Shown one piece after another: positions 43,841 to 49,470 of a stretch of 64,000 bases of DNA. The DNA lies in contig PHAA01000024.1 in the NCBI GenBank assembly GCA_002840245.1, forward strand, positions 1-64,000, in the 5' to 3' direction. A program made the translations under genes and the position numbers. Each line of letters opens with the position of its first letter. Positions within the stretch are counted from its first letter, which is position 1. The notes beneath the pieces were generated by a model that worked only from the letters and a program-made list of their open reading frames with translations, was not told where the DNA came from and did not search any database. This DNA is from Firmicutes bacterium HGW-Firmicutes-15 (lineage in GTDB: Bacteria > Bacillota > Syntrophomonadia > Syntrophomonadales > Syntrophomonadaceae).

Positions 43841-45487
43841 CTATAACTGATATTTGTAGAGCTCGTAACCGCCACTGATATTTTTCGCATTATAGCCCTT
43901 CTGGCGAAGAATGCGGTTGACGATATAACTTCGCAGCCCTTGCCCGCAGTAGACCAGGATTTCTTGATCTTGTGGAATTTCATCAAGGCGGTCACGAATT
44001 TCATCCACTGGAATATTATAAGCGCTGTATGCAGCACCATGTTTGAACTCCTGAGGAGTTCGGGCATCGATCAGGAAAGCTCCCTGGGCCAAGTGCTCAG
44101 GTACTTCGGGCCAGTGAACTATTTCTATATCTTTTAGGACAACATTGGAAGCGGCGTAGGCAAGCATGTTAACCGGATCCTTGGCAGAAGAAAATGGTGG
44201 AGCGTAAGCCAGTTCTAATTCCTGTAGGTCAAAAACTGTCATTCCTGCCCGAATAGCAGTAGCAAGCACATCGATTCGTTTGTCTACTCCATCCCAACCT
44301 ACAATCTGAGCGCCAAAGACTTTGCCATCCTCTGGAGAAAAAATTAATTTTGCCATCATCTGAGTAGCTCCCGGGTAATAAGTTGCATGAGAATTAGGCT
44401 GAGCATGACAAGTCTGGTAAACCCAACCCAACTTGCGAAGAGCCTTTTCATTCTTGCCGGTTACGGCTACTGTCATATCCATAATCTTTACTATCGCTGT
44501 ACCTTGAGCACCGCTATATTTACTGGGACGTCCACAAAGGTTATTGGCGATTAACCACCCCTGACGATTGGCTGGGGACGCTAGGGGCAACAGTATATCC
44601 TGCCCAGTGATGAAATCCTTTACTTGTATGGCATCTCCCGCAGCATATATATAGGGGTCAGAAGTTCTCAGGTACTCGTCTACAAGGATACCCCCAGTGG
44701 AACCAATGGCTAGACCTGCCTCTGCTGCCAACCAGGCTTCAGGCTTAACTCCGATTCCCAGCACCACCATATCAGTTTGAATTGACTTGCCACTATCCAG
44801 AATGACTGTCTCCACGCTGGAAGAGCCTTCAAAGGATACGGCTCGATCCGACAGGCATAGCTCGATACCTTGGTTCTGCAAATAATTATGGACAATTGCT
44901 GCCATTTCCGAATCCAATACCCCAATTAACTGATTGGAAGCTTCAACTAAGGTAACCTTGATATCCCTTTTGTTAAGCATTTCCGCCATTTCCAGACCGA
45001 TAAACCCCCCGCCCAGGATTACTGCAGCAGCCGGTCGCTTTACTTCTATATGTTGTTTGATCACATCACTGTCGGGCACGTTTCTTACTGTAAATACATT
45101 AGGCTGGTGTACGCCCGGGATGTCAGGGATGATCGGGGAGGCACCAGGACAAAGCACTAGGTAATCATAGCTTTCCCGGTAGCTTTGATCTGAGAGGGTA
45201 TTATTGATAATGACTACTTTCTCGTCAGGGATAATGCGCTGAACCTCGCTATTAGTTTTTACATCGATATTGAAACGACGATGCATGGAGGTTGGCGTCT
45301 GTACTAGCAGGCGCTTTCTTTGCTCAATAACGCCTCCCACATAGTAGGGCAGACCGCAATTAGCAAAGGAGATATATTCACCGCGTTCCACCATAATGAT
45401 TTCAGCTTCTTCATCCATTCTCCTTAAACGGGCTGCGGTACTGGCGCCTGCGGCAACGCCCCCAACAATTATGATCTTTTTACCCAT
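43841..45487 (-). CDS. CoA-disulfide reductase-like FAD enzyme with C-terminal rhodanese domain
   Basis: 548 aa. Pyridine-nucleotide disulfide reductase: FAD motif IIIVGGVAAGASTAARLRR, single redox cysteine C44 in SFANCGLPYY, NAD(P) motif AVILGGGFIGLEMAE, then a dimerisation domain. C-terminal rhodanese domain (about 455-548) with active-site C514 in YCGQGLRS. Family fusions reduce CoA disulfide, persulfides or polysulfides with NADH. Divergent from the CoA-transferase gene. Useful in anaerobes for CoA-thiol upkeep or sulfur reduction; the substrate is not decided. Confidence 0.88.
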   Translation of the reverse strand: MGKKIIIVGGVAAGASTAARLRRMDEEAEIIMVERGEYISFANCGLPYYVGGVIEQRKRLLVQTPTSMHRRFNIDVKTNSEVQRIIPDEKVVIINNTLSDQSYRESYDYLVLCPGASPIIPDIPGVHQPNVFTVRNVPDSDVIKQHIEVKRPAAAVILGGGFIGLEMAEMLNKRDIKVTLVEASNQLIGVLDSEMAAIVHNYLQNQGIELCLSDRAVSFEGSSSVETVILDSGKSIQTDMVVLGIGVKPEAWLAAEAGLAIGSTGGILVDEYLRTSDPYIYAAGDAIQVKDFITGQDILLPLASPANRQGWLIANNLCGRPSKYSGAQGTAIVKIMDMTVAVTGKNEKALRKLGWVYQTCHAQPNSHATYYPGATQMMAKLIFSPEDGKVFGAQIVGWDGVDKRIDVLATAIRAGMTVFDLQELELAYAPPFSSAKDPVNMLAYAASNVVLKDIEIVHWPEVPEHLAQGAFLIDARTPQEFKHGAAYSAYNIPVDEIRDRLDEIPQDQEILVYCGQGLRSYIVNRILRQKGYNAKNISGGYELYKYQL

Positions 45488-45673
45488 TATTACCAGCCTG
45501 CCTTTCTTAATTAATATAGGGTTCAGTTCTCAGTGTGCAATGCATAAACACATTAAAATTGATGCAAAAATGCATCGTAATGCTATTGATATTATAATCC
45601 GAATCTAATACTAATATTAATGCATGTTGGTCTTTGGGGATTTGCTGCCTTTCCCAGCAAAATACAAAACTCA

Positions 45674-45687
45674 GGCACGTTTCTTGC
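45674..45687 (+). promoter_or_regulatory. Sigma-54-type (-24/-12) promoter for the CoA-transferase gene
   Basis: GGCAC-GTTTC-TTGC at 45674-45687 fits the GGCAC-N5-TTGC consensus exactly. Transcription would start near 45699, leaving a leader of about 280 bases. Upstream (45535-45630) are repeated TGCAT/ATGCA elements, including GATGCAAAAATGCATC, possible enhancer-binding-protein sites. The rest of 45488-45976 has no gene. Confidence 0.65.
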
Positions 45688-45976
45688 GTATTTTTTTTAA
45701 TATTATTCATCTATTATAATCGCTTATGTCTCTCCTAATCTTATTTTACAGTATTTTCAGTTTGGATACGACCTTAAACAGTTGGCCTAGATATGGAAAT
45801 AAATATTGCTTATATAACCATGCTGTTTTAAAGTTTTATCCAAATACTTTTTTATAGAGGAAATGGACCAGTAGTCTTTGAGGACAGACAAGAAAGGAGG
45901 TGTTTGGGAAACAGGGGGAATAAGATCAGTAACAAAAGCAAACTATATAGAGAAATAATATTGAGGAGGCTATTTC

Positions 45977-47314
45977 GTGAGTTATTTAGAAGATTATAAA
46001 GGTAAATTAATATCTGCGGCAGAGGCAGCTAAGAAAGTTAATTCCGGAGATTGGGTCGATTACGGCTGGTGCGCTGCCCATACCGTGGCTTTTGACAAAG
46101 CTCTGGCGGCCAGAGCCAGTGAACTAACCGATGTTAAAATCAGAGGCGGCGTGGCCCTGTGGATGCCGGCAGTATTCCAAGTCGAAAATCCTGGGGATCA
46201 CTTCAGCTGGCATTCCTGGCATATGACCGGTGCAGGCCGGAAATTAGCCGAAGCAGGCATAGGATATTATGCTTCCATCCGTTATTCGGAAGTGCCCAGA
46301 TATTATAGAGAAAATGTTGATCCGATTGGCGTTGCAGTTTGCCAGGTTACTCCGATGGATAAGCATGGTTATTTCAACTTTGGCCCATCGCCTTCACACG
46401 CTCGGGCTACTTTTGAAGTGTCCAAGATAAAGATAGTAGAAGTCAACCAGAACCAGCCCGTATGCCTGGGTGGTACTGAAAACACTATCCATATTTCTGA
46501 GGTGGACTTTGTAATCGAAGGAGAAAATCCTCCTATGGCTCAATTGGGAGCCGCTGCACCCAACGATGTAGATGCAGCCGTAGCTAAATTGATTGTGGAT
46601 GAAATCCCCAATGGCGCCTGCCTCCAGCTCGGTATCGGCGGAATGCCGAATGCCGTTGGCATGATGATAGCTCAATCCGACCTCAAAGACTTGGGTGTAC
46701 ATACAGAAATGTATGTAGATGCTTTTGTTGATATCTCCAATCAGGGCAAGATCAATGGCTCGAAGAAAAATATAGATAAGGGCCGCCAGAGTTTTGCCTT
46801 TGCTGCCGGCACTAATAAAACCTACGAATTCCTCGACAACAATCCAGGCTGTATGGCGTGCACGGTTGACTATACCAATGACCCCTGTGTAGTGGGACAG
46901 ATAGACAACTTCATGTCCATCAACAATGGGGTCGAGATCGACCTGTTCGGCCAGATTAACTCCGAGTCGGCCGGATACAGACATATCAGCGGCACTGGCG
47001 GACAGCTGGACTTCGTCATGGGCGCTTATCGTTCTAAAGGCGGCAAGAGTTTTATGTGTATGTCCTCGACTTATGGCAAAGCCGGTGCACCTAAATCCCG
47101 TATTATTCCTACATTGGAACCTGGCACCATAGTAACCGACTCCCGTTCCGTTGTACAATGGGTCGTTACTGAATATGGCAAGGTCAATCTGAAAGGTATG
47201 ACCTCCTGGGAGAGAGCTGAGAAGCTCATCTCTATTGCTAATCCAATTTTCCAAGATGAATTGATCAAAGCAGCGGATTCGATGAGAATTTGGCGCAAGA
47301 GCAACAAGAAATAG
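45977..47314 (+). CDS. Acyl-CoA:acetate CoA-transferase (butyryl-CoA:acetate / 4-hydroxybutyrate CoA-transferase family)
   Basis: 445 aa. Family I CoA-transferase of the acetyl-CoA hydrolase/transferase type. [13 protein letters not shown], then the catalytic glutamate in [11 protein letters not shown], and [21 protein letters not shown] are signatures of the butyrate branch. Probable reaction: butyrate (or another short acid) + acetyl-CoA to acyl-CoA + acetate, reversible, as used by butyrate producers and by syntrophic butyrate oxidisers for activation. GAGGAGG before GTG 45977. Codon use is rich in GC-ending codons compared with neighbours, suggesting high expression. Ends at a strong terminator; monocistronic. 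Confidence 0.85.
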
Positions 47315-47520: not shown

Positions 47521-49470
47521 ATGAATGATTATTTTCCTGAACTTTTTAGACCTGGTTATATTGGCAACCTTTGGGTGCGGAACCGAATTGTAATGGCACC
47601 TATGGCTACCCATTTGGCCTATATTAATGGTGAAGTAAGTGAAGCCCTTATCGCTCACTACGCTGCCCGGGCGCGGGGAGGAGTGGGATTGGTGATAGTC
47701 GAAGCGGCCTGCGTAGCTCCATTGGTTGCTAACGAGGGTTTTGGGCAGTTGTACATATCTCATCCTCGCTTTGTTTTGGGTTTGAATAGACTTAACGAAG
47801 CTATCCGGGCCAATGGCAGCCGGACTTTTATTCAGCTTTTCCATGCTGGCAGGCAGACCTCTCGCCTGGTATGTGGAGGTGAACAGCCCGTAGCACCCTC
47901 TGCAATTCCCTGTACTATTATGAAGGAAATGCCCCGTGAGTTGACTAATCTGGAAGTAAAACAGGTTATAAATGAATTCATAGCATCAGCTCAGTATGCC
48001 CACTTAGCAGGATTTGATGGGATTGAACTACATGCAGCCCATGGATATTTGATAAACCAGTTTCTATCACCCCATACCAACCTACGCAGCGATGAATACG
48101 GGGGCAGCCTGCAAAATCGGCAGCGCTTCTTGATGGAGATAGTTACCGAAATTAAAGAGGTTTTACCTGAATTGACTATTTCAGTTCGCCTTAATATTGA
48201 TGATTTCATTCAGGGAGGATTGGAATTAGAAGAAAGTCTAGAGATTTGCAAGTGCTTGGAAAAATCCGGGGTAGATATTATAAACTGTTCCAGCGGTACC
48301 TATGAGTCAGGTTTGAAAAGTATAGAGCCAGCTTCTTATGAGGAAGGTTGGCGGGTATACCTGGCAGAAGCGGTGAAAAAGGTTGTTGAAATTCCAGTCA
48401 TTTCTGGAGGAATGATACGTAATCCCGATTTTGCTAATCAGGTACTGGTAGATAAGAAAGCTGATTTTATATTTCTGGGTCGCAGCCTGTTGGCGGATCC
48501 TGAATGGGTTAATAAAGTGCGCCACAATGAATTGGCAGATATTCGTCCGTGTATAAGTTGTAACAACTGTATAGCTAACGGTTTTAAAGGTCTGGGGATT
48601 CGCTGTACGGTGAATCCATTTAGCGGTCGTGAAACTATGTTAAACCAAGAAAAAATGGTTGAGAAGCAGGCCAGAGTGGTGATAGTTGGCGGCGGACCAG
48701 CTGGAATGCAGGCTGCCGTATCGCTGCGGCGGCATGGGCTTGAAGTGATTCTATATGAAAAAGAAGCTGAACTAGGAGGATTCATGGGTTTAGCCGGAGT
48801 TCCACCCCATAAGGAGCAGGTTTTGGCTTTGCGCAATCATATGGTTAGAGAGTTATATAAATCGGAAGTCGAGCTGGTACTTAACCATGAATTTACGCGG
48901 GATATTCTTGGGGCAACCAAGCCCGATGTTTTGGTCCTGGCAACCGGATCAAAAGCGATCCGGCCCGCACTTGCAGGCAGTAATCAGAGCAATTGCGTAG
49001 AGGCAGTTGAGGTTCTGGGGGGAAAGGTAGAGATATCTGGGCAGAAGGTAGTGGTAATCGGAGGTGGCACTACCGGGTGTGAGGTAGCGGATTATTTACT
49101 GCCTAGAGGTAATCAGGTGACTATCCTGGAAGCGGGGTCCTCTATGGCTGCGGAAATGGAGAGGAAAAACCGCCGTGCCTTGATGAACAGCTTGGAGGAT
49201 GCCGGGGTAGAGAAGAGAACTGGAGCCCGAGTGGTGGAGATTATGCCGGACAGTGTGCGGATAGAAGTTGCTGGAGTTGAAGAACGATTATCTGCTGACT
49301 GGGTGGTTTGGGCTACTGGTTTTAAACCGCAGAATGAACTTTTTAGTATGGTTCAGGAAGAGGTACCTTTTGTTTTTCTCATCGGTGATGCCTTAAAAGT
49401 TAGGGGATTTAAAGAAGCCATACTGGAAGGCGAAATGTTAGGTAATACTATCGCCGGGTTAATGAAATAA
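47521..49470 (+). CDS. FMN/Fe-S/FAD oxidoreductase, 2,4-dienoyl-CoA reductase / enoate reductase family
   Basis: 649 aa. N-terminal old-yellow-enzyme barrel (RNRIVMAPMATH, FIQLFHAGRQ, GFDGIELHAAHGYLINQFLSP with catalytic His/Tyr region, SVRLN), then a 4Fe-4S site with C344, C347, C350 and C362 (CISCNNCI...RC), then FAD/NAD halves (VVIVGGGPAGMQAA; VVVIGGGTTGCEVADYL). The C-x2-C-x2-C spacing resembles trimethylamine dehydrogenase and enoate reductases rather than E. coli FadH. Probably reduces an enoyl- or dienoyl-type substrate with NADH. Follows the CoA-transferase, but with its own leader. Confidence 0.85.
   Translation: MNDYFPELFRPGYIGNLWVRNRIVMAPMATHLAYINGEVSEALIAHYAARARGGVGLVIVEAACVAPLVANEGFGQLYISHPRFVLGLNRLNEAIRANGSRTFIQLFHAGRQTSRLVCGGEQPVAPSAIPCTIMKEMPRELTNLEVKQVINEFIASAQYAHLAGFDGIELHAAHGYLINQFLSPHTNLRSDEYGGSLQNRQRFLMEIVTEIKEVLPELTISVRLNIDDFIQGGLELEESLEICKCLEKSGVDIINCSSGTYESGLKSIEPASYEEGWRVYLAEAVKKVVEIPVISGGMIRNPDFANQVLVDKKADFIFLGRSLLADPEWVNKVRHNELADIRPCISCNNCIANGFKGLGIRCTVNPFSGRETMLNQEKMVEKQARVVIVGGGPAGMQAAVSLRRHGLEVILYEKEAELGGFMGLAGVPPHKEQVLALRNHMVRELYKSEVELVLNHEFTRDILGATKPDVLVLATGSKAIRPALAGSNQSNCVEAVEVLGGKVEISGQKVVVIGGGTTGCEVADYLLPRGNQVTILEAGSSMAAEMERKNRRALMNSLEDAGVEKRTGARVVEIMPDSVRIEVAGVEERLSADWVVWATGFKPQNELFSMVQEEVPFVFLIGDALKVRGFKEAILEGEMLGNTIAGLMK

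Follow-up and report, generated by a model that had tools for sequence, protein, structure and literature searches.

A sigma-54 promoter with a tandem activator site predicted upstream of a butyryl-CoA:acetate CoA-transferase gene in Syntrophomonadales

What turns on a butyryl-CoA:acetate CoA-transferase gene that stands as a transcription unit of its own, and is it turned on together with the beta-oxidation genes of the same genome? The question is raised by the 64,000-nt stretch of DNA analyzed here (the window), part of contig C64 in a genome of 3.47 Mb from the order Syntrophomonadales. Syntrophic beta-oxidation is central to methanogenic carbon flow and, to our knowledge, little has been established about its regulation in obligate syntrophs because their genetic manipulation is hard. 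The features of the window that bear on the question are:

43841..45487, − strand: divergent gene for a CoA-disulfide-reductase-like flavoprotein, with an intergenic region in common with the CoA-transferase gene (sequence and profile searches)
45539..45554, no strand: predicted distal activator site AATGC-ATAAAC-ACATT, 9/10 of RATGC-N6-GCATY, 22 bp 5′ of the proximal site
45561..45576, no strand: predicted proximal activator site GATGC-AAAAAT-GCATC, a perfect palindrome, 10/10, 97 bp 5′ of the −24 GG (pattern searches)
45637..45645, + strand: GGGATTTGC, also in the promoter of the crotonase operon on contig C26 (spacing to promoter 28 vs. 29 bp)
45674..45687, + strand: sigma-54 −24/−12 element GGCAC-GTTTC-TTGC (sequence, genome-wide core count, module search)
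45699..45976, + strand: predicted 278-nt 5′ leader, from the predicted +1 to the start codon
45963..45969, + strand: Shine-Dalgarno sequence GAGGAGG of the CoA-transferase gene (sequence)
45977..47314, + strand: butyryl-CoA:acetate CoA-transferase (TIGR03948), 445 aa, GTG start (profile match, tree)
47521..49470, + strand: FadH/old-yellow-enzyme family oxidoreductase (sequence and profile searches)

The CoA-transferase gene and its promoter element

A preliminary description of this locus had called the enzyme a butyrate-type CoA-transferase, and its score of 733.3 bits against TIGR03948 (curated cut-off 674.8) bears this out; we take its family to be COG0427. Neither a terminator nor a promoter was found between this gene and the oxidoreductase gene at 47521..49470, and the two are possibly co-transcribed.

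The same description had proposed a −24/−12 element agreeing with the sigma-54 consensus without mismatch. The sequence GGCACGTTTCTTGC (45674-45687, + strand), 289 bp 5′ of the GTG start at 45977, indeed contains the nine-base core GGCAC-N5-TTGC exactly, with the GG at −24 and the GC at −12 that mark a sigma-54 promoter in their correct spacing, and with C45687 as −12 the transcript is predicted to begin at about 45699, as the description had it. Measured against the longer consensus, the element has no T before the GG (−26; CA-GGCAC) and a G instead of A or T at −11 (TTGC-G), and on an approximate weight matrix it scored 13.8, vs. 16–19 for most promoters of relatives. One-mismatch matches to TGGCAC-N5-TTGC occurred four times in the window, vs. 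3.2 expected by chance; because near matches are at chance level, the element alone proves nothing, and it is the context that does.

Genome-wide, the exact core was present in 31 copies, vs. four for a reversed control. Four of the intergenic copies, including that at 45674-45687, lie upstream of CoA-transferase genes, and others precede a thiolase operon or genes for an enhancer-binding protein (EBP), a crotonase and a chemoreceptor-like protein (these names assigned partly by eye). The recurrence at other acyl-CoA genes for which the preliminary description advised a search thus extends to three further CoA-transferases and one crotonase. The genome also has an intact rpoN (a 470-aa open frame) and 15 EBPs scoring >200 bits, both of which the description had named as things to look for; its EBPs carry the sigma-54 interaction domain with GAFTGA or close variants (GAFSGA in the candidate at C9:22424). 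Taken with the tandem site described below, these findings largely support the sigma-54 reading, which was right in substance.

A predicted tandem activator site before beta-oxidation genes

The TGCAT/ATGCA repeats that had been pointed out as potential binding sites of an enhancer protein number seven between 45488 and 45673 (0.6 expected; p about 2e-4) and correspond to a conserved predicted tandem activator site, RATGC-N6-GCATY. The proximal site, GATGCANNNNTGCATC, is single-copy in the genome, and the distal site at 45539-45554 is degenerate, which counts against control by sigma-54 and an EBP. Promoters of related operons, when compared, carried this palindrome too, at a comparable distance. 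We searched 63 genomes of the order, the same 63 that make up the class-level set, with a module pattern consisting of ATGC-N6-GCAT, 80–110 bp, and GGCAY-N5-TTGC, which gave 33 matches in 25 of the genomes, none in the reversed control and none in 100 simulated windows. In 23 of 26 modules a further site matching 9/10 or better lay 19–23 bp to one side or the other (0.27% in a shuffled control). Among 29 distinct module positions, 22 are followed by a gene for a thiolase, a crotonase, a hydroxyacyl-CoA dehydrogenase or a CoA-transferase; of the others, two or more fall within coding sequence and are probably chance matches. The module is also present upstream of genes that, judged by eye, resemble members of the 2-hydroxyacyl-CoA dehydratase and 4-hydroxybutyryl-CoA dehydratase families (L185, L213, L201).

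Within its own genome the module occurs only in the window and on contig C26, where crotonase and thiolase genes follow it and the contig ends in an incomplete frame resembling acyl-CoA dehydrogenase. Both modules have ATGCAAAAATGCAT as their core, and in both a degenerate second site lies 20–22 bp upstream.

The palindrome at 45561-45576 could instead be the operator of the divergent flavoprotein gene, unrelated to the CoA-transferase gene, as a sigma-A-like TTAATA-18-TATAAT on the − strand (45620-45591) just upstream of it might suggest. We regard this as highly improbable, given that in many genomes sigma-54 promoters of unrelated gene sets have this same site at an equal distance; possibly the palindrome serves both genes.

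The CoA-transferase of the window and its orthologues in G031, G009, G016, G034, G038, G040, and G044 formed one clade in the tree (support 1.0). In G009, G016, and G034 the orthologue is part of a beta-oxidation operon headed by a sigma-54 promoter with RATGC-type sites, and in G038 and G040 it lies directly behind such a promoter, so that with the window all six assessable loci have this arrangement (G031 and G044, at contig ends, were left out of the promoter comparison). The −24/−12 site is at −273/−274 from the start codon (strong sites) in the orthologues vs. −304 in the window. Since the orthologues lie in or behind such sigma-54 units, the control would have been kept when the window gene became a separate unit. 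Homologues in Desulfoscipio/Sporotomaculum carry TGGTATAATACTTGCA at −128 to −132, which we interpreted as an extended −10 and left out of the sigma-54 count.

These comparisons also bear on whether the −24/−12 match arose by chance and a sigma-A promoter drives the CoA-transferase gene instead. A core of only nine fixed bases and a score below those of relatives' sites would be in line with this, but no sigma-A-like pair was present on the + strand in 45400-46050, and the conserved spacing between the sigma-54 element and the conserved tandem site, the 33 module matches vs. none in the control, and the strong sites at −273/−274 in the orthologues make such an origin very unlikely. Comparison between genomes shows the predicted promoter and tandem site, their conserved spacing, and their target genes.

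Candidate activators and the proposed switch

The EBPs encoded beside orthologues or modules have a CBS domain, most with PAS domains in addition, and a helix-turn-helix (HTH) ending in Q(S/P)T(V/I)VRKAAKYG. EBPs with this HTH type lie 3.7–6.8 kb from the module in seven genomes and adjoin the orthologues in G031, G034, G038, and G040. The exact motif is found in two proteins of the window's own genome, C69:3209-6064 (weak CBS, several PAS) and C9:22424-23764 (CBS, no PAS), which we put forward tentatively as candidates for the cognate EBP of RATGC-N6-GCATY. The assignment is a weak one because, from genome to genome, the HTH motif does not go along with the module: it is present in 13 of 25 genomes with the module vs. 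15 of 38 without (p = 0.24). The two contigs that carry these candidates also carry near-identical frames (262/287 residues), at the end of C9 (L067:15871-16731) and the start of C69 (L054:2-862), perhaps a transposase.

Some other EBP, such as the CBS-PAS protein at C9:12790-14895 or one on C20, might serve the promoter, a possibility that we consider rather unlikely. The C9:12790-14895 protein, with the HTH KIDASTVVRK, adjoins a thiolase operon preceded by AATGG-N6-CCATT (L067:4392, − strand), and because this site is related to, though distinct from, that of the window, near-cognate binding is conceivable. However, the orthologue-linked EBPs are of the type Q(S/P)TVVRK or QSTIVRK, and the exact motif points in this genome to the two candidates only. 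The pairing of AATGG-N6-CCATT with KIDASTVVRK and of RATGC-N6-GCATY with Q(S/P)TVVRK may represent an EBP specificity code. The genome holds 14 matches to the window CoA-transferase, and many of the paralogues on C84, C69, C39, C68, C61, C78, C20, and C64 (L053-L059, L069) have an EBP gene no more than a few kb away, which suggests one activator per CoA-transferase paralogue.

As a whole, we think it highly probable that the CoA-transferase gene has a sigma-54 promoter served by an EBP on the tandem sites, with an activator common to the C26 operon. We infer as follows which protein binds, what signal it answers to and in which direction it controls the gene. An EBP acting as a dimer or oligomer, its HTH of the Q(S/P)TVVRKAAKYGI type, would occupy the tandem RATGC-N6-GCATY sites, two helical turns apart and about 100 bp upstream, loop to the RNA polymerase–sigma-54 complex at 45674-45687, and open the promoter complex through its ATPase. 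The same activator would drive the crotonase–thiolase–acyl-CoA dehydrogenase operon on C26, so that acid activation and beta-oxidation would come on together. Because the candidates carry CBS and one also PAS domains, the signal could plausibly be an adenine nucleotide or the redox state. As the same switch precedes fatty-acid oxidation genes of many relatives, the entire fatty-acid oxidation pathway is probably switched on by a single dedicated activator. An activator site, a shortlist of candidate EBPs, and a target set together yield directly testable predictions.

In Clostridiales, CrbR, XcgR, and AhcR have been predicted to control butyrate genes through sigma-54 (PMC6615313). The system described here is like these in the pairing of sigma-54 with an EBP upstream of crt-hbd-thl-bcd and CoA-transferase genes and, as reported there for CrbR, in having multiple upstream sites. 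It differs in that the sites of those regulators read TGT-N10-12-ACA, a pattern absent from the tandem RATGC-N6-GCATY at 19–23 bp, and in that those regulators serve butyrate synthesis in fermenters whereas the window system probably serves butyrate oxidation. In a sigma-54 survey across phyla, beta-oxidation enzymes and COG0427 (acetyl-CoA hydrolase) were enriched among Clostridia targets (PMC12316311); unlike here, neither an activator site nor a leader RNA is described in the part of that survey available to us. The name Syntrophomonas is absent from the text of both papers. PAS/sigma-54 regulators (Swol_0456) have been reported from Syntrophomonas wolfei, which is of the same bacterial family as the window genome, one of them seen only on butyrate, and the accessible part of that report assigns them neither target nor site (PMC4324140). 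We found no description of the RATGC-N6-GCATY site or of the leader RNA in the literature searched. Sigma-54 control of butyrate genes being already known in Clostridiales, it is the activating site, its occurrence in the order, and the leader RNA that appear to be new.

The 5′ leader and a hairpin in the leaders of relatives

The preliminary description had put the leader at about 280 bases and called it unusually long. Its length stands (278 nt), but its exceptional character does not, since module leaders of relatives span about 190–590 nt. The fold of the window leader gave a z-score of −0.55, i.e., no significant structure. Two readings were rejected: a known riboswitch, since Rfam searches of the window region and of 18 related loci gave no match, and a leader peptide at GGAGGTG (45896-45902), where no start codon was read at the proper spacing.

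Leaders of relatives contain a terminator-like hairpin with conserved arms, ACUGCUCUAUGAUG...CAUCAUGGARCAGU, with a U tract after it. From eight of these leaders we built a covariance model (R1), which over the 63 genomes matched 20 loci in 16 genomes; adding the G016 leader, matched when that locus was searched, gives 21 loci in 17 genomes, weaker opposite-strand matches at the same loci being left out of the count:

L255-L275, e.g., L266:1501-1607 (− strand) and L262:1501-1642 (+ strand): hairpin loci (R1 model)

At every one of the 21 loci a strong sigma-54 element begins 62–128 bp 5′ of the hairpin, and a beta-oxidation gene lies downstream. Nine of its 17 pairs changed on both sides, which none of 500 shuffles reached, a figure somewhat inflated because the alignment was fitted to the model. 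The window leader was rejected as a copy of the hairpin, having a short resemblance to the 3′ arm only (ATGGACCAGTAG) and a best R1 score of 3.9 bits; over the whole of its own genome R1 gave no match.

We see about an even chance that syntrophic beta-oxidation in Syntrophomonadales is under two-layered control, in which transcription is started by a sigma-54 activator on tandem sites and the hairpin, some 60–130 nt past the promoter element, decides whether it goes on; the hairpin would then represent a new attenuator or riboswitch-like RNA family, and the window CoA-transferase would have retained the activator layer and lost that of the hairpin. For an energy-limited pathway, the relatives' covarying hairpin would be a second and unsuspected layer of control.

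Most hairpin leaders have CCCCCU upstream, and often a G run downstream. In the DNA, CCCCCT before the hairpin and AAGGGG(GGG) after it recur in L206, L207, L214, L199, L202, L192, and L193, and these runs could pair or form alternative structures. Separately, a short frame follows AAAGGGGGGAG in L194 and L195 (the C26 promoter and its G006 counterpart), reading TTG GTC GTA TTG CTA GAC TAA and TTG GCG GTA TTA CTA GAT TAG (M-V/A-VLLD), possibly a conserved leader peptide.
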